Shown in pieces: positions 2,675 through 47,348 of a stretch of 64,000 bases of DNA. This DNA comes from Argopecten irradians (taxonomy: Eukaryota > Mollusca > Bivalvia > Pectinida > Pectinidae). Both the position numbers and the translations under genes were made by a program. Numbering within the stretch: position 1 is the first letter of the stretch; every line of letters begins with the position of its first letter. The notes under the pieces are model-generated. The model saw nothing but the letters and a program-made list of their open reading frames with translations, was not told the DNA's origin and made no database searches. The DNA lies in contig NC_091134.1 in assembly GCF_041381155.1 (NCBI RefSeq), forward strand, positions 55,997,944-56,061,943, written 5' to 3'.

Positions 2675-2678
2675 CAAA

Positions 2679-11258: not shown

Positions 11259-11757
11259 AGACTATGCGGCTTTAGGCTTTAAGCTACAACGTGATACCCG
11301 CACCATGCCATTACAGGCTATGGCCGACACTGGATGCCAGAGTTGCCTAGCTGGTCTCAAAGTCATCTGCCGTCTTGGTTTACGCGAATCTGAACGCATA
11401 CCGGTAACAATGCAGATGCACACTGCTACATACAGTGGCATCAAAATTCTCGGAGCAACAATTCTTCGTTTGGCGTCCGAAGACAAGGCAGGCAATATCA
11501 AGGAGACGAGACAAATGACTTACGTTACAGACTCAACAGATAAGCTCTTCCTCAGTCGCGAAGCCTGTGCCGTCTTAGGTATCATTCCAGAATCCTTTCC
11601 GCATGTCGGCACTGAAGACACCTCTGCATACATCAATGCTACTTCGTCTCCAGTTAACCGCCAGGAAGCACCATGCGATTGTCCTACACGTGAACAACCT
11701 CCACCTCCTCCGATGAACTTCCTTTCCCAGCTACAACGGACACTGTCGGCCGGCTGA
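11230..11757 (+). pseudogene. Gypsy-1 aspartic protease region
   Basis: This open frame contains MADTGCQSCLAG near residue 32, a DTG active-site triad of retropepsin type, followed by hydrophobic segments (IKILGATILRL) and a Pro-rich tail (QPPPPPMNF). A retropepsin cuts the gag-pol polyprotein. It overlaps the end of the gag frame and stops at 11755-11757. RT begins in another frame at 11826. Confidence 0.75.
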
Positions 11758-11825
11758 AAGATTACCTCCTCAAGTATTACAAGTCGAGCACATTCAATAC
11801 GTGTGAATATCAGACCTTACCTCTA

Positions 11826-12318
11826 ATGAACGGACCACCCATGAAACTCATGGTAGAACCCGACGCGAAACTGGTTGCCCATCACACACCTGTACCCGTT
11901 CCGATTCACTGGCAAGATGCAGTGAAGGCTGGATTAGATCAGGACGTCCGTCTTGGGGTTCTCGAACCCGTGCCGATCGGTGAACCTGTCACTTGGTGCC
12001 ATAGAATGGTAGTTTGTGCGAAAAAGAACGGCACACCTCGACGCACCGTGGATTTCCAACCCTTGAACGCGCACGCCACTCACGAGACTCGCCACACTCC
12101 TTCACCATTCCACCAAGCGCGATCTATTCCACACGGAAAGAAGAAGACATTATTTGATGCTTGGAACGGTTATCACAGTGTACCTATTCGCGAGGAGGAC
12201 AGACACCTGACTACATTCATCACACCTTGGGGAAGGTACCGCTACAGAACTGCGCCCCAAGGCTACATCGCTTCAGGCGACGGGTATACTAGACGTTATG
12301 ACGAACTTGTCTCGGATA
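11826..12318 (+). pseudogene. Gypsy-1 reverse transcriptase, 5' part
   Basis: Ty3/gypsy RT blocks in order: RLGVLEPVPIGEPVTWCHRMVV, then RRTVDFQPLN, DAWNGYHSVPI with the first catalytic Asp, TPWGRYRYRTAPQGY, and YTRRYDE. The coding part ends at 12318, at the TA target of the pogo-type element. The residues after that in the same frame are transposon sequence. The paired-Asp box of the enzyme lies on the far side, at about 14672. Confidence 0.85.
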
Positions 12319-14647
12319 CTGTGAAATCATTTATTTTCGTTGGGTTCAATTTTCGTGGAATACAAAATTTAACACTTTCGTTGAGATTTAAATTCGTGGG
12401 AAGACGTCACAGGGCATGTTTAATTTCGTCGGGAAAGAGGTATGGAATATTACACACATGATCAATAAAGAAAACGTGTTACAAAATAGTGTACAGTAGT
12501 GAGTAGTTTTCATTGACAATACGTACTTGTATACGTCCAGGTAAGTCCAGGTGTGAGATGTTTTCATACCCACATCGGGTACACTACTGTATAGAACCTT
12601 TCCTTCTCATTATTTGACTGACTTTGAAATGGATCTGACACAATGGTTGAAAACGGGAAAGATGAAATCTTCATGTACCATTGGTCTTCCCGATCCGGCA
12701 AAAGCCAAAACTGTACATGAGGCTGTCGTAATTCAGACAGCAAATGATAGTGTTGTCGAAAACAATTTAACAACGCCAAAAAAACGAAAACGTGGTGACT
12801 ACCATCAGTATAACGACGAACAACGTGCTAAAATTGCCAAATTAGCTTTTGAAGTAGGCGTCACTAAAGCAGCCAGAAAGTTTTCGGGTGAATTGGGCAG
12901 AAATGTCTCCGAAAATACAGTCAGGAGTATGAGGGACTCGTTTGTGAAATTGAAGAAAACAGGTACGGCACTTTATTTTTAAAATGTATTATTTTATATA
13001 TTTATGCAGTAATACTTACAAGAATATTAAGTTACAAATATAAATTTAACACGGGAAGCGAAAATATGTTTACGAAAATACGGCTTAAATTACGTACGTG
13101 ACCTAGCTAGGTTCTATATATAGCCCCACCTCCTCTCGGTGTAACTTCTGTAAAATGAGCAACAATTAAATTATTCTTATTATTGTTTTTAGGAGTTTCT
13201 GATTTGTCGTCCTTGCCAAAATCGCCCAGAGGCAATCCTTTATTATTGGGGGATTTGGACAAAGATGTACAGGAATGGATAAAGAAAATTAGAGTCAGTG
13301 GCGGTATCATCAATATCCGAATTGTAATGGCTGGGATGGAGGCTATCGTCACAAAATTTGCAAAACGTAAACTCGAAAAATATGGGGGTCATATTGTCAT
13401 CACGAAACACCTTGCTCGATCACTTTTACGCAGGATGGGCTTTGTAAAGCGTAAAGGAACAAAAGCAATAAAAAAATCTGCCAACTGATTTTGGTGAAAT
13501 TCAAAAGGAATACGTGAAAAAAGTTTCCGATGTTGTAAAGAAACACGATGTACCTGATGAGTTGATTATCAACTGGGACCAAACAGGGTGTCAACTCTTA
13601 CCCGGGGGTGAATGGACAATGGAGGCGAAAGGTACAAATCAAATTTCTATTGCCGGTATTGATGACAAACGTCAAATCACACTTCTTCTGGCTATTACTA
13701 AATCTGGATCTCTTCTACCACCGCAGCTTATATACCCCGGTAAAACCGACAGGGCTACACCCAAGAATGTTGTGAAATTCCCAGAAAACTGGGATATTAC
13801 AGTAACTGAATCGCACTGGAGTACTGAGGACTCAATGATACGATACATCACAAACATAATTTTGCCGTATGTAAATGACGTAAGGGACTCTCTCCCACTT
13901 GATCGTGTAGATCAAAAGGCCATCGCTATCTTTGATGTGTTCAAAGCCCATCGTACAGATTCGGTCATTTCATTACTGAAAGACAATGGCATTGTGCCAT
14001 TGTATGTACCCGCTTCGTGCACGGATAAACTTCAGCCGTTGGATTTAACTGTCAACCATGAATTTAAAGAGATTTTAAAATCTCGCTTTCATGACTTCTA
14101 TGCAAATGAGGTAATGTGTAAACTAAACGACAGCGGTGACACCGCCGAGAACATTGTGATAGATTTAAAAACATCCACTCTCCGCCCAATACATGCCCGT
14201 TGGGTAATTGACGCATTTGAACGCATGAGTGACCGTCGTGATCTTATCACAATGGGATTTAGGAAAGCTGGTTTGTGTAGCGAGTAATGACCGACCTACA
14301 GGTATGATTATTACGTTTTGTAGTGTTTGTAAAGACTGAACAGTACTATCACTTTGATTCTCTTATATTTATGTACATACTTAAATAAATGACATGTATC
14401 AAGATTGGATTTGATAAAAAAATAAAGGACTATTAAACTGTTCAGAAGCGTCTGTTCTACTTTTTAACTTACGTAATACGTATACATAATAGCGACCACC
14501 TGTACTACAGACTGTAGTCACTTAGTGTACATTTCATGTTTGTACTTTGAAATGGATTAATTTTCGTGAGGACGTAATTTCGTTGCATAAGGCCAAACAA
14601 CGAAAACGACGAAAATTAAACCCCAACGAAAATAAATGATTTCACAG
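12319..14647 (+). mobile_element. pogo-type (Tc1/mariner superfamily) DNA transposon
   Basis: Terminal inverted repeats begin CTGTGAAATCATTTATTTTC at 12319 and end with the reverse complement at 14647, extended imperfectly for about 20 bp more. TA flanks both ends (12317-12318 and 14648-14649). The interior encodes a DDE_1-family transposase with one apparent intron and one frameshift. Excising the element with one TA puts the two Gypsy-1 RT halves back in the same frame, which shows it inserted into a formerly open RT. Both the TIRs and the TA site are seen directly. Confidence 0.92.
12614..14287 (+). pseudogene. pogo-type transposase, intron-containing and frameshifted
   Basis: Exon 1 (12614-12962) has a short acidic/Trp N terminus and a basic helix-turn-helix-like region after KKRKRGDYHQYNDEQ. 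A GTACGG donor at 12963 and a TTTTTAG acceptor ending 13192 bound a 230-bp intron in matching phase. Exon 2 continues to a stop at 13486-13488, caused by a one-base shift in an A-run near 13470. The next frame opens past it and holds the DDE_1 core: NWDQTG, IFDVFKAH and LQPLDLTVN, that is Asp, Asp, Asp, then a stop at 14285-14287. Such enzymes cut and paste the element at TA. The frameshift makes this copy inactive. Confidence 0.88.
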
Positions 14648-14649
14648 TA

Positions 14650-15853
14650 TTCCTAACAAAACCAAGTGTGTCGACGATGTGCTCTTGTGGTCAGACACTG
14701 TTGAGGAGAGCTTTTTTCAGGCCGTACAGTGACTTGACATATGCGGCCGTAATGGGATAACCCTCAATCCCGAGAAATCCCTATTCGCAGAAGACACTGT
14801 AGAATTTGCGGGATTTGAAATCACCAGCGAAAGTGTTCGACCATCACAGAAATATTTACGTGCTATCTTGGACTTCTCTACGCCGAAGAATATCACAGAT
14901 TGCAATCAGGTATCATATGCCTTCAGCATGGCCGAGAAGATGCATCCATTTCGTGAATTACTCAAGCCTGATCAACCATTTAAGTGGACTGAAGATCTCC
15001 AACGAATATTCGAGGAATCTAAAATCGTCATCGCAAACGAAATTGAAATGGGTGTTCGAATTTTCGATCCAAGTAAACCTACGTGCCTCCCGACGGATTG
15101 GTCGAAGTCTGGAATAGGATTTTGGTTGCTACAAAACACTGTGCGTGTACCAACGAGAGTCTCCTGTGCTGTCGCGATGGATGGAAAGTAACACTTGTCG
15201 GAAGTCGGTTCACGCACGCCGCGGAAATGCGCTACGCGCCAGTTGAGGGAGAAGCTTTAGCCGTAGCGGATGCTCTAGATAAGGCTCGACACTTCGTTCT
15301 TGGGTGTGACAACTTGATCATAGCGGTCGACCACAAATCGCTTTTGAAGCTATTTGGAGATAGATCTTTGGAAAATATTCCGAACAATAGACTTCTCAAC
15401 CTCAAGGAAAAGACACTACGTTATCGGTTTAGAATGCTACACGTACCTGGCATACGACATCCCGTTGCTGATTGCATCTCCAGACATCCTATTGGCGATC
15501 CCGATAAACTCGTTCTCGAAGATGACATTGCAACTATGTTCTCATCAACCACTGACTTCAGTGTACTACATGGTTTACGCACCACGTCCTCCGGATTAGC
15601 TTTTGTCGAGGAATATGTCATAGCGGCAGCTTCTACAACACTGAATGCCATCGATTTACGTTCCGTAACATGGGATCGTGTCAAAACAGCCACCACAAGC
15701 GATGACAACATGCAGGCGTTACTCGCGTTGATAGAATCCGGTATGCCGAACACTCGGCATGAACTTCCGAAGTCACTACAGGAGTATTTCACACTCCGTG
15801 ACGACCTTCATACAGTAGATGGTAGCCGACTACTTTCATTACATGGGATGTAA
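14650..15853 (+). pseudogene. Gypsy-1 RT 3' part, RNase H and linker
   Basis: RT resumes at 14650 and quickly reaches CVDDVLLW, the box with the paired catalytic Asp residues. It then runs through the thumb, LNPEKSLFAEDTVEFAGF-like, to the connection domain, with a frame change near 15100-15190. The 15083-15853 frame carries RNase H features: EMRYAPVEGEALAVADAL, LIIAVDHKSLLKL, and the C-terminal HPVADCISRHP. The last 120 codons are the spacer before integrase. This frame ends at 15851-15853, overlapping the integrase frame by 35 bp. Confidence 0.82.
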
Positions 15854-17003
15854 CTATCTCGTAATCGTCGATCGCTATTCTAACTGGCCAATAGTGGAGA
15901 AAGCGTCCGATGGTTCTAGCGGCCTGATAGAAAGCCTCCGAAGGACATTTGTTACTTTTGGCATTCCAGATGAACTGGCCTCAGATGGAGGTCCCGAGTT
16001 CACTGCCATGAGCACACGACGATTCCTCAAAAACTGGGGCGTTCACCATCGACTATCATCAGTCGCCTTTCCCCATAGTAACTGTCGCGCTGAAGTGGTA
16101 GTCAAAACAGTGAAGCGATTGATCATCGGCAATACTAGCACCAGTGGCGATCTTGACACTGATGCGTTTCAACGAGCTATTCTCCAGTATCGTAATACAC
16201 CTGACAGGGACACAAAACTTTCCCCTGCTATGTGCGTGTTCGGTCATCCTATACGGGACTTCATCCCTATACCACCAGGTCGGTACATTCCACATAACAC
16301 ATGGATGGAAACACTAGCAGCCCGCGAAGAAGCGTTAAGGAACCGACATATGCGTGATAGCGAACGTTGGTCTGAACATACTAAACGTCTTTCGCCACTG
16401 GTAGTTGGAGATCATGTGCGAATCCAAAACCAAGTCGGACCCCATCCCCTCAAATGGGACAAGACCGGTGTTATCATCGAGGTTCGCCTATTCGACCAAT
16501 ATGTAGTTCGGGTTGATGGGTCTGGACGTGTTACCCTGCGCAACAGGAAATTCCTCCGAAAATACATCCTTGTTATTACCCCTCCAGCGCGCCTGACGAT
16601 CGATAAAGACATTGCCATTGGCCTTCCTCATTGTGTATCGCTACCTACCTCAAAAGTTCCAGAAACTACAATTGCTGAGAAAGGGAAAGCTTTTAGTGAA
16701 AACACAATTGCTAGTCCTACTCCTTTCACACCGACGGTTACTAGAAATGAGGAACATTTATTTCGCTCATCACCTGATGTAAATCACGATACTCCGCGAT
16801 CTGTAACACGCGACACCCAAAGTCGTCGCCATCTGGAATTCAACTCTCCATCAAGTTCAAAGGACAATCGTAACCGAACTCCGCTCACAGTGCCCCCTAG
16901 TCCTATACCTATACCACAGACTCCATCACTCACACCCGTCCGTAAATCTGGTCGTACAACAACAACACCGGCGTGGCACTTGGACTATGATATGTCTGGA
17001 TGA
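15819..17003 (+). pseudogene. Gypsy-1 integrase, lacking the N-terminal zinc-binding domain
   Basis: The frame enters the catalytic core at once: VADYF (first Asp), SDGGPEF (second Asp) and NCRAEVVVK (Glu). A chromodomain-free C terminus follows with [21 protein letters not shown] and a Ser/Thr/Pro-rich tail. Integrases of this class normally have an HHCC domain of about 60-100 residues upstream. Here the RNase H linker runs straight into the core near 15830, so an internal deletion is inferred. The frame ends at 17001-17003, 165 bp before the 3' LTR. Confidence 0.85.
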
Positions 17004-18674: not shown

Positions 18675-21435
18675 AACGATGCTCTCACTCAAAATTACTT
18701 TGGGGAGATATGAGACCAACCCGTGCTTTACCTGGGGGTGCTGATGTGCCATTATAAGTGTATGTTATACATAGGCGGTCAGTTCCGTGTTCTTAGGATC
18801 CTTCCTGACATTGTTATTGCCTAAATAAGTGCAAATATGGTAAGGGGGAAGATTAGATGTACCTTAAATAAAATTGTTGATTTCATGGGAGAAGGTATGT
18901 TTTTTTATAGTTCGTAGTTGTAGGATACCGATATTGAATAAAGCTTGGTGTAAGTATATTAATGGCGTTCATTGTTTTGGTTTTAAAGGTCCAATACCTT
19001 TCCAAAACGGCTTTTAATTTTTAAAATGGGAATGTAAAACGAGATCGATAATTTTATAGAGTCGCAAAAGTTATTAACTCATCTTTAATACTACACTTAT
19101 CATCATCTTCAGAAAATTTTCATTTAAATAAATAAAATGTTAATTTTCATAAGGCGGGTCGTCCTATGTTTCTCGCCGTCGTCCTTAATAACGCGCAGTA
19201 GTTGACTATTACTGCGCCAGACGGCAAAACGGCGAAATGAATCTCCACAGTTATCATTATTACGCAGGAAATCTTGCATATGTTTGGTGTTGTTACCTCA
19301 TCTTAGGCCATGGATAGGCATTTTCTTTTGTTATTAATGTTTTAAGAAACCTTTAAATTTTGCTTCGGAAAGTCATGTTATTAGCCACTGAAGCGTAATT
19401 AATATTGAAAGATATTCTTTACGACTTAATATCGAAATACAAAAGAACTTCATCGGCATGCTTAACATTATAGTCAACAATATTTCCTCTCAGTAGATTC
19501 TCAAGTGTATCTGATTCCGGATTAAAAGTACAGGAGACATTCCGTATTATTTTTTTCTGATGTGTAGTTCGCTTTACCAAGCTTGTCATGCGGAACATAC
19601 GATTTGGGACTTGTCGGATTCAACACTACATAATCCGATTTCCTTAAATTACCTGCCCAACATCTGCTGGTGTTTTCGACGAACAGGAGAAGTGCTATCG
19701 AATAACACCAGTTTCTGAAATTGATTTCCCAGGTGATTTCATTGAGATTCGACACACTGTCAAGATTGGACGGGGCTAAAGTTCACACAAATAAATATCC
19801 CCTTGCCGTTAGTATCAATGGTAGTAGGTGGTTTACGCTATCCCTTATGGAGGATGGCATTGTTTGGAATATTTTGAATTTGCGATAAAACAAAGCCTAG
19901 ATCTTACGGTTACCATTTTCCAAATGTCTCCAATGGTGACTACATTACGCTGGATTACCACACGGGGTTTGTCATCTATATTCGATAGTTTTTACAAATT
20001 ACTTCAAAATGCTAGATAAGTTCAATTTGTGTAAATTGGCAGATCATTTTTTTCGCTAACCAAAACTTGTATTTATTTTAAAAAAAACCATCTAAACATG
20101 TTAGTACATGCTAATACTAGTTTCGATGACACTTATTGGATATTCGCAATAACATTATATTACTCAAGCTGCATATCAGAGTATATTCTCACAATACGTG
20201 TGAATAACATTTTCATGATTTATTTTGAAATGAAAATTATAGGCCCTGTTATTAGGACTGTTTATAAATATTCCAAAAATCGTCTACACAACAAGGATTG
20301 TTGACAAACAAGTATTTTTTGTCATAGAAAGTAGTATCTTATTAAAGGAATAAATTCTTAAATATTGTAAATGGTATATCATTTCCTTCAAGCAATCGAT
20401 TACACGGTACTACTGAGATGTTGATGATTTGGTGGGTAAAACTTCCGAGTAGATACGCAAAAATATCATTTCGTTCGAGATTTTTAATTCGACTTCAGGT
20501 TTGACATCAATTGCCAATCAGTTACATTTTGTAATACGCCAAGAACATTGAAAAGGTACACGTGTGTGTGCGAGCACGAGGTGTGGCGATCGGTCAATTA
20601 TTACAATAATAGATAGTTTCCTTTTATGGTTGATTTGTGTTGTTATACAAATTAAGAACATGCGGTGTTTTACCAATCATGTGTTTCATCATTATAAGTC
20701 ATCACAATGAAAGGGAAATAATGATTATAACCTTTTCAACTGTTCAGCGGACGTGGCATAGTGTCGAATCCATACAATATCGGTTTTGCTCTGCGAAAGA
20801 TAAATTCACTCTTTCCATATACATTTAGTTCTCTTTTGAATTCATTCAAACTTTCGACCACAATTTACTATTTAGATCTATGTATTTGACAATACGGTTA
20901 GCGCCTATGTGTGTTACGCTTTATTTAAACATATCATGACCTCAAAGATAGAAATACTTGTTTGAAAATGACGAATGGATAAGTAAATTCTGTCAATAAT
21001 ATTCTTAAATAGGTATTAACAGACGTTCGGTAGACTAACAAGTAAACTTTAGATGTTTGGCAAAAGGATCGATAGCGACACAAAATAACAATGCTGAATA
21101 AATTCAAGCATTTAGAAACTGTATTTTACACAGGTAATATAACCCACATGAAAGAAATCACTTGAAATTAACTTTTTTCGTCCGGTTCAGGCGAAATGTA
21201 CTTCACAAAATATTATCTGTGGTAGACCACTTGGAAAGTAAGAGCATTTCGGCAAGGATATTTTAAATATAGTACCCATGTTATGATATCATATTATTTT
21301 ACAGATAACAAATATCTGGTTAGTTCCAAGTCAAGGATTACATGTACACAATTAAATCTTTCAATATACAACACAGTTATTAAAACAACAAGTTCTGAAT
21401 TAAGCTTAAATTAATTGCTATAGGTATAGTCACTG
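18675..21435. other. Mostly featureless AT-rich sequence
   Basis: No repeat or gene can be supported except the decayed open stretch at 19419-19790. Short open frames (19828, 20098, 20637 on plus) show no motif. Confidence 0.5.
19419..19790 (-). pseudogene. Possible decayed coding remnant, unrecognised
   Basis: On the minus strand an open stretch runs from about 19758 to 19522. It reads like a real polypeptide (NEITWEINFRNWCYSIALLL, then KSYVPHDKLGKANYTSEKN). One base further on, the next frame stays open from near 19525 to a stop at 19419-19421. TTGACAG just upstream could be a splice acceptor. I recognise no family. It could be a dead transposon gene or part of a host gene downstream of the mosaic receptor. 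Confidence 0.3.
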
Positions 21436-21565
21436 TTATACAATAATGTCGTTATCAAAAACACCTATATTTTGCATAAGATTCTCATTTTCAGTTACAC
21501 TAACAGTTAAAGCAAGGTTACTGTTGCCAACGGAATCTTCCAACACAACATTACTGTTTCCATGG
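21436..21565 (-). CDS. Mosaic gene: displaced 3' end of the last exon (cytoplasmic tail)
   Basis: Directly left of the 5' LTR, after the ATGG duplication (21562-21565), the minus strand stays open in the phase left by 27976 for 41 codons. It ends with TAA at 21436-21438. The residues include GNSNVVLEDSVGNSNL and a LMQNIGVFDNDII end, acidic and Asn-rich, with no known signalling motif evident. Continuity of frame across the insertion supports this being the original tail. It cannot be translated in this allele unless the element is spliced out. Confidence 0.7.
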
Positions 21566-24500
21566 TGTTATGTATGACACTAAATACATGTAGTTATGAG
21601 ATAAGGGAGATAACTCCTATAGCTTTATTATCAATACATCCTATAAAGTCCATATCATTGAATTAGGTTATAGAACTTTCTAGAATATTATCATGTATAA
21701 ACAAATATGTTTGTAAACATGTTGTTTATAAGTAGAGATCTAGAATGATCTATTTCCAGAAAGTTCTGTGTGTTTATTTGTTTACTGTTTTTAGTTAGAT
21801 ATTTCTAGAAGTAGAAGGTTCTCCAATATTCTTGAACTAGGGTTTAGCTATATATATACTCGAGCTGTCCAAGGCTAATCAGAACTGTAATGAGACCTGT
21901 AATTAGACATATCAAGAATTGTACAGCGCCATATAAGATTCTATTGGGAGAGCTATTGTGACTTTATCTGTGGATTATTACAACACTTTGTGTGGATTTA
22001 TTCATATTGCCTGGAACTTTACAAATCATCTGTGGACATTCATTTTCCTCGTGGATTTTTGATTATTGTTAATTTGAAACCTGGAAGGATCAAGGATTAT
22101 ACCAGGACATTCGCATACAGATAAGTAACACTTAAAATCATCGTATTACTCTTGTACCACCACCAATTACTTTAGATATTGTAAACCATCTCTGTATAAT
22201 ATTGTATATATAATTAAATTGTGTTTTGAATTTAGCTGCTGGTTTCTCATTTCTGTTGTTCGTTCATGTAACAGAAATTGGAGGTTCGTGTCCGAGATCG
22301 ATATTTTAATTTGTGAAATCTAACTTTGAAAAATTAATTAAGAAATTTTCAAAATTTGTGTAAAAACTTGGAGTTTACATTTGAAACCAACAGCTAGATA
22401 AACATGACTACTATGCAGGTAGAACAGTTTGTTAAAGCGCCATCCCTGAAAGTTCTTTTGCAAGTTAGTAAGAAGGATTTACTGTTATTGGGTAAACATT
22501 TAGGCCTTACTATCAAAACTAATTTGAGGAAAGCTGAAAGGAATGTAATTATAAGATATTTTGTTGACAATAGCAAATTTGACTCTAGTGCATTAGATAG
22601 TATAGAGGAAACAGTCAGTTCTTGAACATGAAATGAAACTAAGACAAATGGAAATAGACAAAGAGAAAGAAATAAGAGAAAGAGAAATAGAAAAGGAGTT
22701 AAGAGAAAAAGATATTGAAAGAAAATTAAAAGAAAAAGAGATCGAGAGAGATCAGATGTTAGAACTAGAGAAGCAGAAAATTCAAGCTGAAACAGAACTT
22801 AGAATTAAAGAATTAGAGCTAGCTTCTCAGGACAGTTCAAGTAATCCGACTTTTAGGGGTTTACAAGGAAACAGAGTTTTTGATGTCAGTAGAAACATTA
22901 GGTTAGTTCCTCCTTTTCAAGAGAAAGAAGTTGACAAGTATTTTCTGCATTTTGAGAAAATAGCTGATAGTATGAAATGGCCTGAAGATAAGCTTACAAT
23001 GCTTCTTCAAAGTGTCTTGATTGGTAGAGCTAGAGACATTTATTCTTCTTTATCTGTAGATGACATTTCAAATTACCACGTAGTCAAGAAAGCTATTTTG
23101 AAAGCTTATGAGTTAGTTCCTGAGGCTTACCGCCAGAAATTTCGAAACTCGAGAAAGAGAGATGAACAAACTCATGTAGAACTTGCCAGAGAAAAGGAAC
23201 AATTATTTAATAGGTGGTGTGATTCTAACGAAATTGATGAGGATTTCGGTCAATTAAGGCAATTATTGTTGATAGAGGAGTTTAAACGTTGTGTTCACAC
23301 AAACATAAAAACTCATTTAGATGAAAGAAAAGTTGAAACACTTAGCGAAGCAGCTACAATGGCTGATGATTACGCTCTCACCCACAAAGGCTCATTTGTT
23401 AAAAACAGTTCTCAAGACAAAAACAGTACCACAGGTACTAGTAAATTTGGTCAGCCTAGGAACCCTACCTTTAGTGGACCTCTAATGACAAACCAAAATT
23501 AGGTGATAAGACTAAGTCTGATTCTAAAACAGATCATAGGGCATGTGTGGGGTCTCCTTCTGGTCCTGTTTGTAATTACTGCAAGAAAGTAGGACATGTT
23601 ATGTCTGAATGTTTTTTTCTCCAGCGTAAGGAGCAAAGGCGTAAACAGTCAGTTCCTTCTGTGTTAGCTATGTCAAAGCCTAGCCAGAAACTTAGTGATA
23701 TTGTGGAAGATTCTAAAGTGTCTGTTGAGATTAAGAGCTCAGAGTCTGATAGTGTCTTGGAGAAGTACTCTCCCTTCATTTCTGAAGGTTTTGTTTCACT
23801 TACTAGTGATATCACCAACTTGAAACCTGTGAAGATTTTGAGAGATACTGGGGCTTCTCATTCTTTGATATTAGATGGCGTAGTGCCTTTGTTTGAGGAG
23901 ACCTCATCTGGTAGTAGTGTTTTGCTTCAAGGTGTAGAGTTAGGTTTTGTTAATGTGCCTCTCCATTGTGTTTATTTAAAGTCAGACTTAGTAACTGGGC
24001 CTGTCACCATTGGTGTTAGACCGGAACTTCCCATAGAGGGCGTGTCGCTCATTTTAGGCAATGACTTGGCTGGAGAGAAAGTTAACGTAGATCCTTTAGT
24101 GTCAAGTATCCCTGATAAAACAGGTGATGCTGAGACTATTCAACAGGAATTTCCTGGTATTTTCCCTTCTTGTGCTGTAACTCGTTCAATGAGTAAGAAG
24201 GTTTCTGATGTTGCAGTAGTTGAGGATCATTATAGTCCAGGGTTAGGTGACACTTTCTTGGCTCATGATATAGAGGATATCGGGGGCAAGTGTGATCTTT
24301 TGAGCAATCCTGTAGACTTTGATAGTGATGGAGTTGTTCCTAACAAGGGTACTTCTTTGTCTGACATGATGAGTAAATCATCTTTGTCTAGAGAGGAGCT
24401 TAAAGTAGAACAGGAGAAAGATCCTGAAATCTCCTTATTGTGTAATCGGGCTTTGAGTGAAGAAGAGGTTTAGAAAGTCCCAGTTTGTTACTTCCGTAAA

Positions 24501-27500
24501 TCAGGTGTGTTGATGCGCAAGTGGCGCCCCCCCTGATGTGTCTCCCGAGGAAGACTGGAAGGTTGTCAATCAAATAGTTGTCCCACCGAGGTATAGGCAA
24601 GATATTCTGAGTTTGTCTCATGATGTACCTATGGCAGGGCATTTAGGTGTGACCAAGACTTATAACAGGATCTTAGATCACTTCTTTTGGCCCAAGTTGA
24701 AACGGGATGTGGCTGATTTTTGTAGGTCTTGTCATACTTGTCAGGTGGTAGGGAAACCTAATCAGAAAATCCCTGTGGCACCTCTGCACCCCATTCCAGC
24801 ATTTGAGGAACCATTTAGTAGAGTCATTATAGACTGTGTAGGTCCTCTACCCAAAACTAATTCTGGGAATGAGTATCTTTTAACTATTATGTGTGCTTCC
24901 ACACGCTTTCCTGAAGCCATTCCACTCAGGAATATTAAGGCCCCTAACATAGTCAAGGCTTTGGTTAAATTCTTTACATTGGTTGGTCTTCCAAAAGCTG
25001 TCCAGTCAGACCAAGGTTCGAATTTCATGTCTGGTATTTTTCAACAAGTCATGTACTAGCTCCAGATCAAGCAGTATAAGTCTAGTGCTTATCATCCAGA
25101 GTCTCAGGGTGCTTTAGAACGTTTTCATCAGACATTGAAGAATATGATGAGATCTTATTGTTTTGAAAATAAAAGAGATTGGGACGAAGGTATACACATG
25201 TTGTTGTTTGGCGTTAGAGAATCTGTACAAGAATCTCTTGGCTTCAGTCCCTTTGAACTTGTGTTTGGACACACTGTACGTGGTCCTTTGAAAATTTTGA
25301 AAGACAAAATTCTGGACGCAGATTCTAAAGTAAATCTCTTAGAGTATGTGTCAAACTTTAAGCAAAGGTTGACAAGGGCATGTGAATTGGCAAAAGAAAA
25401 TTTGGCCGTTACTCAAACCAAAATGAAAACATGGTATGATAAAGATGCCCGTACAAGAAGTTTTGATGCAGGTGACACAATTTTGGCTCTATTACCAATA
25501 CCGAGTCAACATTGCAAGCTAGATATTTTGGACCTTATATTGTTGAGAAAAAGGTCGATGATGTTAACTACATTGTACAAACTCCAGGGAGGCGCAAGAA
25601 AACTCAATTATGTCATGTTAATATGCTTAAGAAATATGTAGATAGAGAAGAGAGCAAGACCTCTCAACCTATTTCTACTTTGGCCTCTGTACCATCACAA
25701 AGTGAAAGTACAGCTGATATTTGTAAATTAGACTTAGATGGTGGTGTACAAGATGTAGGTTTAGACTGTGGTGTTAAGTTACGGAACTCAGATGTGCTCG
25801 CGAACTTGGACAAGAAACTATGTCATCTATCGGAAAAGGAACGCAATGAACTGAAAGATTTTATACTTGAGTTTAAACATTTGTTTCCGGATACACCAGG
25901 CAAAACAGATGCTATCTATCATGACGTGGATGTTGGTGATGCGCCACCTTTCAAGCAACATCCTTACCGTGTCAATCCTTTGAAAGAAGAAAATTTAAAA
26001 AAGAAAGAAATTCAATACATGTTGGACAATGATATTATTGAACCAAGCAAAAGTGAATGGAGCTCTCCATGTGTTCTGGTACCAAAGCTAGACAAGACAT
26101 ACCGATTCTGTACTGACTTCAGAAAAGTAAACTCTGTCAGTAAAACAGACTCTTATCCAATTCCAAGGATTGACTCATGTATTGACAAAGTTGGCAAAGC
26201 CAGGTACGTAAGCAAGTTTGACCTGTTGAAAGGATATTGGCAGGTGCCTTTGACAGAAAGAGCCAAAGAAGTGTCGGCATTTGTAACCTCACAAGGTTTT
26301 TACCAGTACAAAGTTATGCCGTTTGGTATGAAGAATGCCCCGGCAACATTTCAACGTCTTCTTAACAGCGTGATATCAGACCTTGAAGGCTGCGATGGAT
26401 ACATTGATGACGTAATCAACTACCACGACACGTGGGAAGACCATCTACGCGGGATTCGCGAATTCTTCGAGAGACTCACTACCATGAAATTGACTGTAAA
26501 CTTATTGAAATGTGAATTTTGTCATGCAACTGTTGAATTTTTAGGTCATGTTTTAGGACAGGGGCAGGTTAAACCTGTTCAGGCCAAAATAGAATCCATT
26601 ATAGATTTTCTAACTACTTGAAGCAAGAGAGAGCTGATGAGATTTCTTGGTATGGCTGAATATTACAGAAAATTTTGTCAAAATTTCTCTGATTTAGCAG
26701 CTCCACTTACTGCTTTGTTAAAGAAAAATGTCAAATTTGTCTGGTCAGACGAATGTAAGTCTGCCTTTGAGAAATTGATTGCATATTATCAAACTCACGA
26801 GTTCTGACTGCTCCAGATTTTAATAAACAGTTTAAACTGTTTGTTGACGCCAGCGATGTAGGTGTTGGTGCTGTTTTGATGCAAGAAGGTTCTGAACAAA
26901 TTGACCATCCAATTTGTTATTTCTCGAAAAAGTTTGACAAACACCAGAGAAATGATTCCACCATTGAGAAAGAATGTTTAGCGTTGATTTTGGCCTTGAA
27001 CCAATTTGATGTGTATCTCTGCACTACAGTTGTGCCTGTGTTGGTCTTCACCGACCACAACCCTTTAACATTCATTGGGAAAATGAAAAACAAAAATCAA
27101 AGAATTCTCAGGTGGAGTTTGACTTTGCAAGAGTACAATCTTGACATCAAACATATCAAAGGGAAAGACAATATTCTGGCTGATGCTTTATCAAGGATTT
27201 AAATATGACTTAATATTTCAAGAAAGTTTCCTTTTCAAGAAAACTTTCTTTTCTTCAAGGAGGGGTGTGTTATGTATGACACTAAATACATGTAGTTATG
27301 AGATAAGGGAGATAACTCCTATAGCTTTATTATCAATACATCCTATAAAGTCCATATCATTGATTTAGGTTATAGAACTTTCTAGAATATTATCATGTAT
27401 AAACAAATATGTTTGTAAACATGTTGTTTATAAGTAGAGATCTAGAATGATCTATTTCCAGAAAGTTCTGTGTATTTATTTGTTTACTGTTTTTAGTTAG

Positions 27501-30500
27501 ATATTTCTAGAAGTAGAAGGTTCTCCAATATTCTTGAACTTGGGTTTAGCTATATAGATACTCGAGCTGTCCAAGGCTAATCAGAACTGTAATGAGACCT
27601 GTAATTAGACATATCAAGAATTGTACAGCGCCATATAAGATTCTATTGGGAGAGCTATTGTGACTTTTTCTGTGGATTATTACAACACTTTGTGTGGATT
27701 TATTCATATTGTCTGGAACTTTACAAATTATCTGTGGACATTCATTTTCCTCGTGGATTTTTGATTATTGTTAATTTGAAACCTGGAAGGATCAAGGATT
27801 ATACCAGGACATTCGCATACAGATAAGTAACACTTAAAATCATCGTATTACTCTTGTACCACCACCAATTACTTTAGATATTGTAAACCATCTCTGTATA
27901 ATATTGTATATATAATTAAATTCTGTTTTGAATTTAGCTGCTGGTTTCTCATTTCTGTTATTCTGGGTCATAACAATGGACATGTGTACGTGACGAGTGA
28001 AACTGCTTATACAGATTAATAGCATCTACCAGTACCAGAACTAAACAAACAGACATCAGAATAATAACACCAACTATCCCTAAAGATATCGCCGACGGTC
28101 TTTGATCGTTTGCGCACGTTAGACTTCGCTTGTACGATGAAGTGTTTTTAGCATCAATTTCAATATTTTTCTTGAGCACCTCCAGTCTCTCAGTCAGATC
28201 CTCGGGTGTTGTAAGAACAGGTTTGTAGGTGTTTTGACAAGCTGTAAAATAGACAGCATTCAATATATTAAGGAACAGAAATTCACGCTGAAAATAATGA
28301 CGAATACATTTCTGATCAATAAATAATAATTTAGAACAAATACATTATGAAAGAAAATCGTATACAATATCGTAACCATTTTCATTTTATTTATATACCG
28401 TGAAGAAGGTTTATGGAAAATGATCAAAAACTCAAACATCTTTTGATTAGGTCGAGCAAAGACGGCAGCCGGGCATAAACGCAATGGTGACGAAATTACA
28501 AAACAGGCAGAGGAAACGGAAGAACATTGTGAATATTGAAAAGTACAAAGCCATGACAAGTATATTTTACAGTGACGATTTACCTAAGGATATAAATTTG
28601 TGTAGAATGTCTCTATTCAGGTTAGGATGTTGGAAATATATTGGTATTTTACCTGAACATACAGGTGAGGTACCTGTCCACACACCTCCCGAACAGGTGT
28701 GTATCTGATCCCCTGACGTCATCGTGAAGCCGCTATCACAAGAGTAGAGAAGTCTACTCCTGTGGGACGTGCCCTCATAAAGGAAGTTTGTATGTGTAAC
28801 AGCTATTGGTGGACCACACGCACTGCCCGTTACAGTCGTTAGCGCTGTCAGCAGCGTTACAGAAAATAAAACAAAAATACTAATAGTGAAATAACAAGAA
28901 AACATGCATACCTTATAATGACAAGAAAATATGCTTCAATGACATTGATTTAGTTTAGTTGAAGTTGTGATCAGTTAGCAAATTGGATAAGTTCCTGTTG
29001 TTTGTTGCTTTACCTTATGCATCAAATGGTACGTACGAACAACCTGATATATTAAGATAAAAACTGCTTTCAATTCAGTATTTTATTTCACAATATAGTT
29101 TTCTTTTACATACCTGTATTAGATGTTGTTATTGTCGGAGTGATTGCTGCAATTGAGTTTGTAGTGAGAACTGGTGAAGACACGGCTGGACTCTGAGTGA
29201 CAGTGGTGATAGACAGAGCCACGGTAGTTGGATGCTGGGAAGTTGTAGATATTGTATACGTAGACGTGGAGTATACAGTTGGCTGGTTTGTTGTATACAT
29301 ATTCGAAGTGGTGGTTGAAGGCTTGCTAGTCGTAGATTCAGACGCAAACGCAAGAACAGAGCCATTCGTTAAAGCGGAACCTTCAGTTGTAGACTGAATG
29401 GTTATAGTCGCGATAGTCGTAGTGGTAGCAGTGGCAGACTGGGTGGTTTTAGTTGTACTCAATGTTGATCGTAAATCCGTAGTTTGGATAGTTGTAGGCG
29501 GATCACTGGTAGTTGTCGATATGGTGGTACTAGGCGGATCACTAGTAGTTGTCGATATGGCGGTTGTAGGTGTTTCACTAGTAATTGTCGATATTGTAGT
29601 TGTGGGTGTTTCACTATTAGTTGTGGACATGGTTGTTGTAGGTGATTCATTAGTAGTTATCGACTTGGTGGTTGCAGGTTTTTCGCTAGTAGTTGTCGAT
29701 AAGATGGTTACAGGTTTTTCACTATTAGTTGTCGATATGGTGGTTACAGGTTTTTCACTAGTAGTTGTCGATATGGTGGTTGCAGGTTTTTCGCTAGTAG
29801 TTGTCGATAAGGTGGTTGCAGGTTTTTCACTAGTAGTTGCCGATATGGTGGTTAAAGGTTTTTTACTAGTAGTTGTCGATATGGTGGTTGCAGGTTTTTC
29901 ATTAGTAGTTGTCGATATGGTTGTTGCAGGTTTTTCGCTAGTAGTTGTCGATAAGGTGGTTGCAGGTTTTTCACTAGTAGTTGCCGATATGGTGGTTAAA
30001 GGTTTTTCACTAGTAGTTGTCGATATGGTGGTTGCAGGTTTTTCATTAGTAGTTGTCGATATGGTGGTTGTAGGTGTCTCACTAGTAGTTGTCGATATGG
30101 TGGTTGTAGGTGTCTCACTAGTAGTTGTCGATATGGTGGTTGTAGGTGTCTCACTAGTAGTTGTCTGTATGGTGGTTGTAGGTGTCTCACTAGTAGTTGT
30201 CGATATGGTGGTTGTAGGTGGATCACTAGTAGTTGTCGACTTGGCGGTTGCTGTAGGTGGATCACTACTAGTTGTCGACTTGGTAGTTGTAGCTATATGT
30301 GGATTAGCAGTGGTAGTCGTTGGTGTTGTGGCTGAAGTTGTGGTTAGATCAATCGAAAATGTGGTTGAATTTATAGATGTAAATGTAGATTTTTTCATTG
30401 CAACCCATATTATCTATGGAAAAGGCCTGAATGAATATGCTCATCAAAGGCAATTAAGTATATTTGAAAATAATGCTTTTGTAAAAAATGTGATATCGGT

Positions 30501-33500
30501 GTCGTATTTGATGGATTATACGAATCACACACAGAAGTCTAACGAGATCATCAACCTAAAAAGACAGAACAAAAATGACTCACCTGTTTTGCAGTCACTG
30601 CCTGTCCAATTAGGGTTGCACGTGCATGCCACGCTAACAACGGGGTCCATAGTCGCATTGCAGCTCCCATGCCCACAGGCACCTGTCACTGGAATATACA
30701 CATACGAAATTTAAGTTGGTGAAATTCCACTTATCACGGATTTAAATATCAGTAGAAAAAGAAGATGAAAATCCACCCTTTTGTCTGAATTGACGAACAA
30801 ATTATTGCCTCTATCTTACCTGTTCCATAGGCTGTCATAACTCGTATAGTGACTTGTGCTGCATCAGACATTTGGTTCATTTGTCCACCGGCCCACAGAG
30901 TGTTATGGTAGACCATTTTGCCGCTTGATGAGTCGGATGGTCGCCACAACAATACCTGATTCTCTGTATAGACATATACAACTCCGCCGAACGCAGCAAA
31001 ACTTCCATCTGTCAAACCATTTCCCACACCATAAAAACGGAAACCGGGGTTGTTCCCATTTGATACTGTAATCTAGAAGTGGTAGGCTAATCAGTTATTA
31101 TAGCATACGTCTGCTTACATTTATCATGTATTAAGTAAATAACTTTCTATACAAATAAATACCACTGACATTCTATGATCATTGAAGAGTTATAACAGTG
31201 TATTTCTTTAAATTCACTGACACTATAAATACATTCAAACTTGCAATACCTAATGCTAATACTTTTGTTGCGATATTATTTTTTAAACCAATAGTTAGAA
31301 TGCTCGAAGAATTTATGTTACAAAATGTAAATGAAGCTTTATCATAAAGGTCGTACCTCTGCTGACACAAGTATGGCACTTGTATCGAACGTAGACGAAA
31401 AAGGGATTTCATAACTACTGTTCAATCCGATACCCATCGCTAGGGTATGTTGAAATAGTGTCTCAGACGAGGGGAATATCCAACACATTATTCTAAAAGT
31501 GCCTGAGGAAAACCACCAGTTTTCATTTAACCCCCATCCATCCCTTGCACTGAAGACATATCCTAGAAAAAGGATTAAGTTGTGAAATTACGTCCTCTGT
31601 TGCAACTGAACTTCGTCATATCTATCTCAACGCCTTTGGTGTATAACGACTTGAGTCATGTTTGTCTTGAACAAAAGAAAATAAAATAATTAATGATGAA
31701 CCTTTAAATTGAAGATTATTTTCTTTATAATGGTTAAGAATTTTGAGAAGTTTGTATACATTTCATTCAAACAAAACAAATTGTTGGTAGATTATTTTAC
31801 CGCTAGAAGAAGCCCACAGCCGTATCCTAGAAGTGTCATACCCAAACAGAACACCTCCTGTGTTTAGACCTGATACCGGGTCAGATATCCCCGCACTTCC
31901 TATAAATAAACGATAGCAAGTAGTTCAAAGTTAAAATAATATGGTATCTAAAAGAAACATAAATTAAGTTATATATTATTTCAAGACTTCTTCTGATTTT
32001 TGGGTCAGACTATCACTTATGAGGAATAAATTATGAACCTTGTATTGGTTAACAGACAGCGAGGACGAGCACTTGGACATTTCCCACTATGAATATGGTG
32101 ACTATCATCGAAGAAGCAGATAACGGATACTCTATAGAGACACATGGTACTATTCGCACTTTTTCATTTTTGTCAATTCTTTTCTTTTTAATGACATTGT
32201 CGACAAAAAACGTCCGCAGTAAAAACCATTTACCTACTTACCTTGTGCGTCTGACATATAATCTGTGTTATCTAGGTCAATCTGTACGGTAACCAGGTCT
32301 GGGTATACGCCTAAGTTGTGGGTTATCTCGTGGTAAGCCGATGAACCTGGATCAAACATCAATGAACATATGAAAGGTCACAATTATCTTGAACACTGTT
32401 TTATCTATAAGGTTATATCTCTCAAATTATTCGATTACAAGGAAATCGGGGTTTTTACTCTAACATTTATAGTAAAGTTTATTCAAATACCAGTAGTTAC
32501 GTACCACTAATCGCTGTCCACTGATGATCAAATGCTGGCGAACCGATGTCACAAAGTTTCCAGGCGCGAACTTTCACCTCACCGGACTTGTAAGATCCAC
32601 CAATCAGCGTAGACCCTGTTCTTTCAGCGCCACCTGTGAAAGAAGATGACAATTAAAGCATTTCATGGTGGTGAGTTTTTTTTTTATCTGATTTGACTAC
32701 ATGAATAAATAAACCAATTTATTCATCACAGAATACAAAACCGGTAACATATTTGCTATATTTAAAGTTATGTGCCATAACTGGGCGAAAATTTTGACTT
32801 TTGTGGAAATCATTTACATGAATAGACGAACATATGAAAAAACCTTGCATAAATCACTTTATAATTACTAATAGTACTGTACCAATGTGAAATAAGATTG
32901 TGGATCACAACGTAGCTTCATGATCTGACCGTATGTAATCATTTTACTGCACTGTTGATGTAAAAACAATGGGTTTTGGTAGTACTGCCAAAAATCATTT
33001 TCATCTCTTTGTGTACTTGTAAAATTAAAACATATGCTTTGTAAGTATAGCAATTCTCAGTGTTAGTAATTTCTGGTGTGGTGAATAAAGTATTAGACGA
33101 ATGTTGTATTGTTCTGTTGTTGTTAAAGTGGAATTATTCGCTTGTTTCACTTTTTAAATATCCGCCAACAATCCACACACGACCACACTTACAATGACAA
33201 TTGTAACATATATAGTTTTATCATAGTTGAAAAGAGTAAAAAAAACCACATCCCGAACAGTTTAAAGATGATTAAAAGAAGACATCCACAAAATCAAATA
33301 TTAACATTCCATGTATGTTTGTCAAAATGTGTAGCACATGAGAGCATTAAACATTTTATCTTAATAATCTTACTAATTTCTGCTCTAAATTATACATGCT
33401 GTACCATTGCATGCTCGTTAAAGGCGATTCAATAAGTTAAAAATATAATTTATTTAGCTGACTTTATCCGTCGTAATGCACTGTCTTAATCTTGGTCTAT

Positions 33501-34888
33501 AAGTTGAGAGCTTGCCCCAGTGAGAATGATTATAGTTCTATTCCCTAAATTAGGCAGTTTCTGATCCTGCTAAGCATTCGGCGTAAAGGAAGAGACGACA
33601 TGTTCACCTGTCGTTAAGAGTTACACGGAGACAAAACACGAATATAAATCAGAGTCCGTAAAACGCAGACACACATCAGGCACACAACACAGACATTAAT
33701 ATAACCAACAAACCAACACAAACGTTAAGCTGACTTTCGTGTAACTAATGAAAGTGGCAGCCTTTGTCTAATTTTACCTGTAAACGCGACTAATCCGGTC
33801 GTGGAAGCAAAATTGGTGCCTTTGCCATCAGGTGCGTACACTCTAACATCGATAGTATTATAGATATACACTACACCTCCGTACAAAGAGTCATCGTCAT
33901 CGTCCCGATGTGCCGAACCAGTTCCAGTGAAGATGTAATAATCACCACCATCTATCACTCTTACTTGGACATCCACCTTCACGGGGTACTCGTTGAGATC
34001 ATGAGGAATGATCAGTTGACTCCCAGCGTCTGCTTGTGCCGTCAATGTCAGCCATCCACTTTCGAAAGAGGGCGCATTCAAACTCTTTACAATAAAAACT
34101 GCTGATAAAGGTCAACAGAAACGGTATAAGTGTTGTGCAGTAGAAACTAAACAAATGTTAATACCCTAAAATAAGTAAACAAGCATAAATGTTGGTTGAA
34201 ATATGTAGGTGCGAGTATATGTATGTGTCTTGGTATGGGTGTTCTTTTTGGATATATGTCCTCTGAATATGTTATGGAGATAAGCCGAAAACTGTAAAAT
34301 ATGTGGGATAGAGATATGTTCTCTATCCCACATATTGTACAGCTTGAGGCTTATCTCTAACTTAAAACATAGCAAGGCTTTGTGTTAATAAAGTACACTT
34401 TTATTTCTAATATAAGGCAGTTTTTTTGCCTTTGTCTATGAGCTAAGGTAACTCTACCAATGTGCATTCAACCATGACAAATCCGATATAGACAATTGCA
34501 ACAAAGAATTACCTTTGCCTGTGTTATGTGTGATGAATAGCATTCATGAACAGAATGCATGAAGCATGCTTTTGGGTTGGACAATTATCTGTAAATTCAT
34601 TTTTATCATGTCCACCGACGGTGATGGAGGGATACTATTTTCTCAATTTAAGTGATACATGTATATTAAGGTGGCTTTTACTAAAATCACATTTCTTACC
34701 AATGTCTGATGTGACATATGAAACTAGACTTGCAATTGTTTGAAAGCGTCTTGCTAAAATGATCGCATATACAAGAACTTTCATTGAATTCAGGGGATTT
34801 GAAATTTCGACCTCTCTAGGTAGAGTTTTGGATTTATTTATACCATGTGCAATTTCATTCAACAACCCAATGGGATCTAGATGAAATT
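21436..34888 (-). CDS. Mosaic single-pass surface protein gene (repeat modules, EGF, mucin stalk, sushi, TM), N terminus not seen
   Basis: Join by splice signals, from 5' to 3': 34888-34700, 34101-33778, 32633-32505, 32346-32242, 31899-31801, 31562-31357, 31072-30820, 30688-30584, 30331-29114, 28844-28653, 28241-27976, with the last exon continuing at 21565-21436 beyond a retrotransposon. All junctions are GT/AG. All are phase 1 except one phase-0 join (31357/31072). The product is at least about 1,070 residues: beta-rich Gly/Trp modules, EGF-like, Thr-rich stalk, CCP, a hydrophobic helix, then a short tail. Symmetrical phase-1 exons are the mark of exon-shuffled extracellular proteins. The role is inferred as adhesion or recognition at the cell surface. 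The signal peptide and first exons are not found, and no family name is claimed for the repeat module. Confidence 0.75.
21566..22273 (+). repeat. Gmr1-type 5' LTR
   Basis: 708 bp, TGTTATGTATGACAC to TTCATGTAACA, TG/CA ends with TGTTA/TAACA inverted termini. A likely primer-binding region follows as TGGAGGTTCGTG at about 22279. Its tRNA is not identified. Confidence 0.9.
22404..23502 (+). pseudogene. Gmr1-type gag with coiled coil and SCAN-like capsid region
   Basis: A first open frame starts at an ATG at 22404 and ends TGA at 22623. A second (22633-23502) opens nine bases later in another frame. The second starts with about 65 residues of Glu/Lys/Arg heptads (EKEIREREIEKELREKDIE), a strong coiled coil. 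Then comes PPFQEKEVDKYFLHFEKIA and a helical block LVPEAYRQKFRNSRKRDEQTHVELA with FNRWC. That block resembles the SCAN domain, which is known to derive from a Gmr1-like gag capsid. Gag would multimerise around the RNA. The split between frames may be a real frameshift site or decay. Confidence 0.8.
23547..24473 (+). pseudogene. Gmr1-type zinc knuckle and aspartic protease
   Basis: CNYCKKVGHVMSEC near residue 10 is a clean CX2CX4HX4C nucleocapsid knuckle. About 90 residues on, ILRDTGASHSLIL has the retropepsin DTG, with a flap-like segment and VSLILGNDLAG as the C-terminal strand. A long acidic linker with an RSMSKK segment leads toward integrase. It ends at 24471-24473, with a short non-open stretch before 24538. 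Confidence 0.85.
24538..25641 (+). pseudogene. Gmr1-type integrase, with in-frame stop
   Basis: The N-terminal zinc-binding domain is visible as HDVPMAGHLG and CRSCHTC. The catalytic triad follows: IIDCVG (Asp), QSDQGSNF (Asp) and HPESQGALERFH (Glu). A TAG at 25057-25059 interrupts the frame between the second Asp and the Glu. The same frame reopens (25135-25641). The C-terminal region (DAGDTILALLPIPS) shifts frame near 25510. Position ahead of RT defines the element as Gmr1-like. Confidence 0.88.
25512..26621 (+). pseudogene. Gmr1-type reverse transcriptase
   Basis: After an integrase C-terminal piece and a linker, RT starts near residue 140: IEPSKSEWSSPCVLVPK, YRFCTDFRKVN, VSKFDLLKGYWQVPL with the first Asp, FQYKVMPFGMKNAPATFQ-like blocks, and GYIDDVINY with the paired Asp residues. 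All catalytic residues are present. The frame is lost at 26619-26621, where a one-base change precedes the LMRFLGMAEYYRKFC connection region. Confidence 0.88.
26624..27202 (+). pseudogene. Gmr1-type connection domain and RNase H
   Basis: After the RT stop, the connection region (FLGMAEYYRKFCQNFSDLAA) lies in a shifted frame. RNase H begins at LFVDASDVGVGAVL and continues in the 26876-27202 frame. That frame has STIEKECLALILAL, FTDHNPLTFI and a NILADALSRI end. It stops at 27200-27202, 66 bp before the 3' LTR. At least two frame changes occur. Confidence 0.85.
27268..27975 (+). repeat. Gmr1-type 3' LTR
   Basis: 708 bp, same start as the 5' copy and ending TCATAACA. Its last 18 bases provide, on the minus strand, the five codons and stop that now end the host mosaic gene. 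Confidence 0.9.
27976..28241 (-). CDS. Mosaic gene last exon: juxtamembrane, TM helix, start of tail; broken by an LTR element
   Basis: The exon starts after TTTTACAG in phase 1. It encodes a Cys-containing linker (CQNTYKPVL ... SLTCAND), then a hydrophobic helix ISLGIVGVIILMSVCLVLVL, and a basic start of tail (LYKQFHSSRTHVH). At 27976-27979 ATGG (read CCAT) meets the LTR. Reading on gives five codons and a stop at 27958-27960 inside the LTR. The original tail codons lie at 21436-21565. Confidence 0.8.
28653..28844 (-). CDS. Mosaic gene exon: sushi/CCP domain
   Basis: A 192-bp phase 1-1 exon, acceptor GCTGACAG and donor GTAAAATA. The four Cys and Trp follow the CCP plan: ACGPP, LLYSCDSGF, HTCSGG with VWTGTSP, then VC. 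CCP domains mediate protein binding in complement-type and adhesion proteins. Reading upstream through the intron gives an ATG and a hydrophobic run that looks like a signal peptide (from 28905). That is most simply an intronic accident but could mark a short alternative form. Confidence 0.85.
29114..30331 (-). CDS. Mosaic gene exon: mucin-like Thr-rich stalk with 36-bp tandem repeats
   Basis: One 1,218-bp exon, phase 1-1, with acceptor ACTTCAG and donor GTATGTAA. It encodes 406 residues, over half Thr, Ser or Pro. The centre holds about 21 twelve-residue units of the type STTTSEKPATTI or STTTSETPTTTI. A four-unit (144-bp) block is itself duplicated near 29790-30060. Such stretches carry dense O-glycans and hold a domain away from the membrane (family knowledge). 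The plus-strand open frame through the same DNA is a shadow of the repeat. Repeat number is likely to vary between individuals (inference). Confidence 0.85.
30584..30688 (-). CDS. Mosaic gene exon: EGF-like domain
   Basis: A 105-bp phase 1-1 exon, ATTCCAG acceptor and GTGAGTCA donor, encoding about 35 residues with CGHGSC, then CTCNPNWTGSDC. That is five Cys in the spacing of the C-terminal part of an EGF domain (CxCxxxWxGxxC); the full six-Cys pattern is not all visible. The compact one-exon, phase-1 form is usual for shuffled EGF modules. It separates the repeat modules from the mucin stalk. Confidence 0.78.
30820..31072 (-). CDS. Mosaic gene exon: module 3, second part
   Basis: 253 bp, phase 0 in and phase 1 out, with CTAG acceptor and GTAAGATA donor. 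It contains FAAFGGVVYVYTENQVLLWRP, the third copy of the GGVVYxY...xxLW box, and a C-terminal MSDAAQVTIRVMTAYGTG strand. It sits directly before the EGF exon. Confidence 0.78.
31357..31562 (-). CDS. Mosaic gene exon: module 3, first part
   Basis: 206 bp, phase 1 in and phase 0 out, TTTCTAG acceptor and GTACGACC donor. It starts YVFSARDGWGLNENWWFSSG, then FRIMCWIFPSSETLF and ends in SAILVSAE. The GWG and Trp pairs match the W-rich openings of other modules. It is the only exon of the set with an asymmetrical phase, and its partner below restores phase 1. Confidence 0.72.
31801..31899 (-). CDS. Mosaic gene exon: module 2, third segment
   Basis: 99 bp, phase 1-1, TTTATAG acceptor and donor GTAAAATA. 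It encodes NTGGVLFGYDTSRIRLWASS, equivalent to the YGGVVYIYNTIDVRVYAP end of module 1, so one module is spread over two or three exons here and held in one exon at 33778-34101. Confidence 0.75.
32242..32346 (-). CDS. Mosaic gene exon: module 2, second segment
   Basis: 105 bp, phase 1-1, TTGATCCAG acceptor and GTAAGTAG donor. It encodes YHEITHNLGVYPDLVTVQID, the counterpart of PHDLNEYPVKVDVQVRVID in module 1. That match is the main evidence that the modules are homologous. Confidence 0.75.
32505..32633 (-). CDS. Mosaic gene exon: module 2, first segment
   Basis: 129 bp, phase 1-1, TTTCACAG acceptor and GTACGTA donor. It encodes a GGSYKSGEVKVRAWKLCDIG segment followed by PAFDHQWTAIS. The VKVRAWK strand parallels VRVYAP and IRLWAS in neighbouring modules. 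A single Cys is present. Confidence 0.72.
33778..34101 (-). CDS. Mosaic gene exon: complete repeat module 1
   Basis: 324 bp, phase 1-1, with acceptor TTTATCAG and donor GTAAAATT. The module runs SFESGWLTL, IIPHDLNEYPVKVDVQVRVID, FTGTGSAHRDDDDDSLYGG, VVYIYNTIDVRVYAPDGKG. The motif order (W, then YPxxVxVQV, then an Asp-rich loop, then GGVVYxY and VRVYAP) recurs in exons 32346-31801 and 31072-30820. The Asp-rich loop could bind calcium (inference). A CAGCAG acceptor allows an alternative start three bases on. Confidence 0.75.
34271..34361. repeat. 91-bp imperfect hairpin
   Basis: The arms GTTATGGAGATAAGCC and GGCTTATCTCTAAC enclose a nearly perfect inner palindrome ATATGTGGGATAGAGA / TCTCTATCCCACATAT. 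This suggests a small MITE or foldback remnant. It lies in an intron of the mosaic gene. Confidence 0.75.
34700..34888 (-). CDS. Mosaic gene, most upstream exon detected
   Basis: 189 bp, bounded by an ATATTTCAG acceptor and a GTAAGAAATG donor, phase 1 at both ends. The 63 residues read FHLDPIGLLNEIAHGIN and later MKVLVYAIILARRFQTIASL. They resemble, loosely, the HEITHNLGVYPDLVTVQ segment of a later exon, so this may be half of another copy of the same module. It carries no signal peptide, and earlier exons must exist further right or have been lost. Confidence 0.6.
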
Positions 34889-47172: not shown

Positions 47173-47348
47173 CCAGGACATCGCGACGCGCGCGCAGTGC
47201 TGAACCTGTCAGAGGTGCTATTCGAGATTGCTGTGAAAATCGCGTTTATTCAGAGACTGAACTTTCTTCCGATAGTACTTGTAGTGCTCAAGACTCTGAC
47301 TCTGACTCAACTTCTACTGCTCATGAAAATGACTCCAAATCAAAATTT

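Follow-up and report, generated by a model that had tools for sequence, protein, structure and literature searches.

Within a 64,000-nucleotide stretch of Argopecten irradians DNA (RefSeq assembly GCF_041381155.1, contig NC_091134.1, positions 55,997,944 to 56,061,943 of the forward strand; called the window below and numbered from its first letter), a 6.4-kb long terminal repeat (LTR) retrotransposon interrupts, in antisense orientation, the last coding exon of a minus-strand gene. We put at roughly three chances in four (about 0.74) the reading, derived from sequence, that this is a Gmr1-type element which jumped into the final coding exon of a gene for a type I membrane protein and left a former tail of 41 codons stranded 5.7 kb away on its far side. 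Two direct LTRs of 708 bp each, starting with TGTTATG and ending with AACA, form the ends of the element, and a 4-bp target duplication, ATGG, is present at both outer borders. The first-pass annotation of this DNA had placed such an element with these repeats in the last coding exon, and coordinates and repeats were confirmed here. Because the ATGG copies match and the LTR ends are intact, we regard the insertion itself as certain; the open tail is not the reason for that certainty.

The reading frame was followed on the minus strand across the junction and across a reconstructed empty site. The host exon (28241 to 27976) begins at an AG acceptor, remains open through ATGG into the LTR and then ends with CYDPE and a stop (27975 to 27958, the minus-strand reading of the 3' LTR), which bears out the earlier claim of five codons and a stop gained from the element. 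With ATGG counted once, as at the empty site, the frame continues for 41 further codons (21561 to 21439) to a stop of its own at 21438 to 21436; the displaced stretch is thus in the right phase and unbroken, as had been noted. The features at the junction are as follows.

21436 to 21561, minus strand: displaced C-terminal end (GNSNVVLEDS...DNDIIV*; 41 codons plus stop), which keeps the phase of the host exon
21562 to 21565: left copy of the ATGG target duplication
21566 to 22273, plus strand: 5' LTR, 708 bp, ending GTTCATGTAACA
27268 to 27975, plus strand: 3' LTR, 708 bp, ending TGGGTCATAACA
27976 to 27979: right copy of the ATGG target duplication, also coding in the host exon
27976 to 28241, minus strand: last coding exon of the host gene, with juxtamembrane stretch, membrane span and start of the cytoplasmic tail

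The genome search covered one assembly (845.8 Mb, 1508 contigs), and no empty-site copy was found in it: the left flank had one match, itself, and the right flank had two, itself and the sushi exon of a tandem paralogue. An empty allele could still exist beyond a single assembly.

It is likely that the 41 codons are the former tail of the protein. Donor-like sites reach at best 3.8 from the membrane span to the old stop and 4.3 within the span, so that nothing in the joined stretch exceeds 4.3, and the two donors of the host gene that were scored reach 7.2 and 6.6 (one scoring table throughout); with no strong donor from the span to the old stop, the exon would most likely have continued until its frame met a stop. 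Of the 41 codons, 34 begin with a purine and 25 are RNY (purine, any base, pyrimidine) codons; among 2,803 open background windows, 11 attain the first count and none the second, although these windows overlap and the test was chosen after the tail had been seen. The same observations bear on a different origin, in which the old protein had its end elsewhere, spliced to a different last exon, and the 41 codons are open by chance or belong to the 3' untranslated region. We consider this quite unlikely, since an open reading frame without a donor has to run to its first stop, and that stop closes the 41 codons, and since the purine-first and RNY counts are high.

Several results nevertheless count against a former tail, most of them in favour of a chance frame. 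Openness of this length arises at 5–6% of starts: at least 41 open codons occurred in 5.2% of 20,000 simulated sequences, and, for two stretches taken as non-coding, at 6.0% of 4,031 and 6.4% of 11,551 starts on the minus strand. A codon-usage score, trained on the exon family with identical loci, the window's exon and one further exon left out, falls between the classes, being matched by 403 of the 2,803 open background windows while 13 of 164 held-out coding windows score as low. The host exon is not RNY-rich (28 of 89 codons). The tail has no homologue but itself in the one genome searched, and no similar tail occurs among 54 relatives of the membrane exon. A tail of 57 residues would exceed that of 51 of the 54 relatives, and the paralogue, with a membrane exon 63% identical, ends in a different 19 residues. 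In addition, the N-terminal exon of the host gene was not found.

A further possibility is that splicing removes the element as a newly formed intron, so that the old tail is still produced. Acceptor-like sites are present in the antisense 5' LTR, the best being TTCCAG at 22081. Such an intron would require a donor before the stop at 27958, where the best site scores 4.3 and lies within the membrane span; a better donor, 5.1 at 27872, comes after the stop. Because no strong donor precedes that stop, we regard splicing-out as very improbable.

Taking the 41 codons as the former tail, the protein before the insertion would have ended with them, 57 residues after the span (16 and 41), whereas the present protein would stop after 21 residues. 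The change was earlier described as a swap, for which 'shortens' is the better word; that the change is confined to the part after the membrane span was upheld, the extracellular domains and the span being unaffected. The transcript would probably end at one of three antisense AATAAA motifs in the 3' LTR (27699, 27475 and 27326). Since neither the extracellular domains nor the membrane span is affected, the protein should still arrive at the cell surface, with its tail shortened. Both the earlier and the present protein can be read from one chromosome, so that what a transposon does to a cytoplasmic tail is open to direct testing.

How much this shortening matters can be judged from the family to which the exon belongs. 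The membrane exon at 27976 to 28241 is one of 150 scored matches in the genome (E up to 0.15); by hand count, 107 reach E 0.001 or better. Its members follow, by eye, the pattern R..[CS]A.D.R.SA....G.VG...D, with seven invariant columns in an alignment of nine sequences. No Pfam family was matched by the window's exon at E 0.01, and none by four relatives above the cut-off. The Asp that closes the membrane span is kept in all 55 sequences compared (the window's exon and 54 relatives), and past it the tails of the 54 relatives run from 7 to 171 residues, with a median of 20.5, where each tail was taken to end at the first in-frame stop and splicing is possible. This survey took in 54 of the 149 other matches, namely ranks 2 to 54 and the match close to the window; five of them duplicate the protein sequence of another. 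The insertion therefore leaves a tail of 21 residues that is ordinary in length for the family, in a part that the family does not conserve. The membrane exon may be an unnamed anchor module common to many surface proteins with unrelated tails; an anchor exon in which an extracellular half-motif and the span are kept and the tail is not would explain the tolerance of the insertion. From the freely varying tail length in the exon family it follows that the effect on the protein is probably mild. Open-licence PMC text yielded no title or abstract on the gene, the exon family or the insertion, and four peptide strings of the membrane exon family had no match in it.

A harsher outcome would be that the insertion inactivates the gene, through an unstable or unterminated transcript, and that the copy is on its way to becoming a pseudogene while the tandem paralogue keeps the function. 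The paralogue lies 42 kb away with counterparts of eight exons at 72–94% DNA identity, and the gene's own 3' region, with three AATAAA motifs, has been split from the gene by the element; both facts suit inactivation. We hold it to be fairly unlikely, since the exons that were read contain no stop or frame break, the LTR supplies an early stop and antisense AATAAA motifs, and a tail of the length that results is nothing unusual in the family.

Upstream of the membrane exon, the host gene has the make-up of a mosaic surface protein whose order on the minus strand is six repeat-region exons, an EGF-like exon, a Thr-rich stalk, a sushi exon and the membrane exon, the acceptor of the last being in phase with the sushi exon donor by eye.

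28653 to 28844, minus strand: sushi (CCP) exon, E 3.9e-8, borders by eye
29106 to 30413, minus strand: Thr-rich, mucin-like stalk in an open frame, with 36-bp repeat units
30572 to 30704, minus strand: EGF-like exon, PF23106, E 1.2e-5
30816 to 34106, minus strand: extracellular repeat region in six exons, each with a counterpart in the tandem paralogue

Two exon frames of the repeat region were scanned against Pfam and gave no match. A structural model of the extracellular exon at 33776 to 34105, built from two sequences, had a mean predicted local distance difference test score of 39.5 and was not used, and a search of PDB sequences with the same exon returned one chain at E 0.29, which was judged a chance match.

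The membrane exon of the paralogue is 63% identical in protein, the lowest among the exons. Its similarity to the window's exon breaks off 8 codons short of the insertion point and is followed by the paralogue's own 19 residues, so the element would have entered 8 codons past the end of paralogue similarity. The paralogue was considered as proof of the old tail and rejected for this reason; likewise, the left flank (19500 to 21565) showed no DNA similarity in the 29.8 kb that were examined beyond the window. Over 28241 to 34106 the identity between the tandem genes is patchy by exon, from 72% to 94% in DNA, which looks like exon-wise gene conversion.

The element itself fits the Gmr1 type of Ty3/Gypsy, judging from its domain order and its gag. 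Pfam profile matches on its open frames place the integrase (24580 to 25050) upstream of the reverse transcriptase (26079 to 26552). Having the integrase ahead of the reverse transcriptase distinguishes the Gmr1 clade (PMC6238403), and the vertebrate SCAN domain is described as derived from a Gmr1-like gag (PMC3424704); a SCAN-type gag is thus on record for a Gmr1-like gag and is no formal criterion of Gmr1. The earlier assignment to Gmr1 stands on these two likenesses, integrase upstream of reverse transcriptase and a SCAN-type gag; the present copy differs from the clade in being broken.

22279 to 22298, plus strand: stretch resembling a primer-binding site, which we take to be of tRNA-Pro type; other copies have forms near TGGGGGCTCGTCCGGGAT
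22404 to 23502, plus strand: gag, in at least two frames, with SCAN PF02023 at 23119 to 23388 (E 3.2e-14)
23475 to 24473, plus strand: zinc knuckle (weak, under the cut-off) and the next pol region, with a TAG end
24514 to 25059, plus strand: integrase zinc-binding domain (E 1.2e-21) and core (E 9.6e-8), 5' of the reverse transcriptase, TAG at 25057
25476 to 26621, plus strand: integrase C-terminal domain (E 2.2e-12) and reverse transcriptase (E 1.1e-31), TGA at 26619
26771 to 27202, plus strand: final pol open frame, RNase H-like by eye only

By eye, the primer-binding-site-like TGGAGGTTCGTGTCCGAG follows the 5' LTR and a purine-rich AAGGAGGGG precedes the 3' LTR. The breaks in pol consist of open frames that close with TAG at 24473 and 25059 and with TGA at 26621, and the phase of the open frames shifts near 22.6, 23.5, 24.5, 25.5 and 26.8 kb; one phase change may be a normal feature of the retrotransposon family.

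The two LTRs differ by nine substitutions in their first 696 bp, or 1.3% (Poisson range about 0.6–2.5%), and the final 12 bp are discordant as one block, so that the earlier phrase 'nearly identical LTRs' holds for the former part and not for the latter. Because identity is 99% between the two and 96–97% to the other 38 scored copies, we attribute both to one insertion. An internal stretch of 661 bp shows 98% identity to 39 other scored copies, and taken together the LTR and internal identities suggest a fairly young retrotransposon family. At substitution rates usual in animals, the insertion probably dates back no more than a few million years. The word 'recent' in the first-pass annotation agrees with LTRs that are about 99% identical and is tempered by a pol that carries stops and frame breaks and by the differences between the LTRs. 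A heterozygosity of about 1% is usual for bivalves, and in a species at that level an insertion of such an age could still be segregating. There would then be two alleles with the same outside and span and with 21 versus 57 intracellular residues, and tails in the family would be replaced freely by events of this kind; we offer this as a tentative and rather doubtful extension.

An isoform of the human receptor FLT4/VEGFR3 that derives from an LTR has an altered cytoplasmic tail. A receptor C terminus altered by an LTR is already known, and the present case is cleaner in that both ends stand on one chromosome. In the human leptin receptor an LTR supplies the carboxy terminus (Kapitonov and Jurka 1999, by its title as listed in PMC2448423); the likeness is that an LTR provides the new C-terminal end of a membrane receptor, and the difference is that there, going by the title, an end is added by alternative splicing, whereas here the element lies within the exon and the end is replaced. 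For FLT4/VEGFR3, PMC5454887 lists the LTR-derived isoform as 'LTR, alternative splicing'; as far as that entry goes, the LTR likewise changes the receptor end, but by splicing in human and with both isoforms produced, unlike the exonic insertion described here.

Two kinds of LTR 3' end, the TGGGTCATAACA type and the GTTCATGTAACA type, exist in the retrotransposon family, and both are found in other copies. Reverse transcription is expected to leave both U5 (unique 5') ends alike. In a comparison of 30 of the 40 scored LTR matches, the outer LTR ends were of unlike kind in three of eight position-paired elements or arrays, the present element included; such mixed ends could stem from inter-molecular strand transfer or from conversion among copies. 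At C5:16248731-16266582, four LTRs of the same family lie on one strand at a 5.7-kb spacing, an arrangement that we read as a tandem element array with common LTRs.

Other mobile elements lie elsewhere in the window. A DDE_1 transposase at 13472 to 14287 (E 1.9e-13) splits a retroelement at 10659 to 17003 on the same strand into a reverse transcriptase part (11694 to 12461) and RNase H and integrase parts (14733 to 17003), and the whole is best described as a nested insertion. A second Gypsy-like element occupies 46225 to 52487 (gag E 4.2e-9, reverse transcriptase/RNase H E 4.2e-25), and open frames resembling a long interspersed nuclear element lie at 64 to 3732, with an endonuclease domain (E 9.1e-12) followed, by eye, by reverse transcriptase-like frames.

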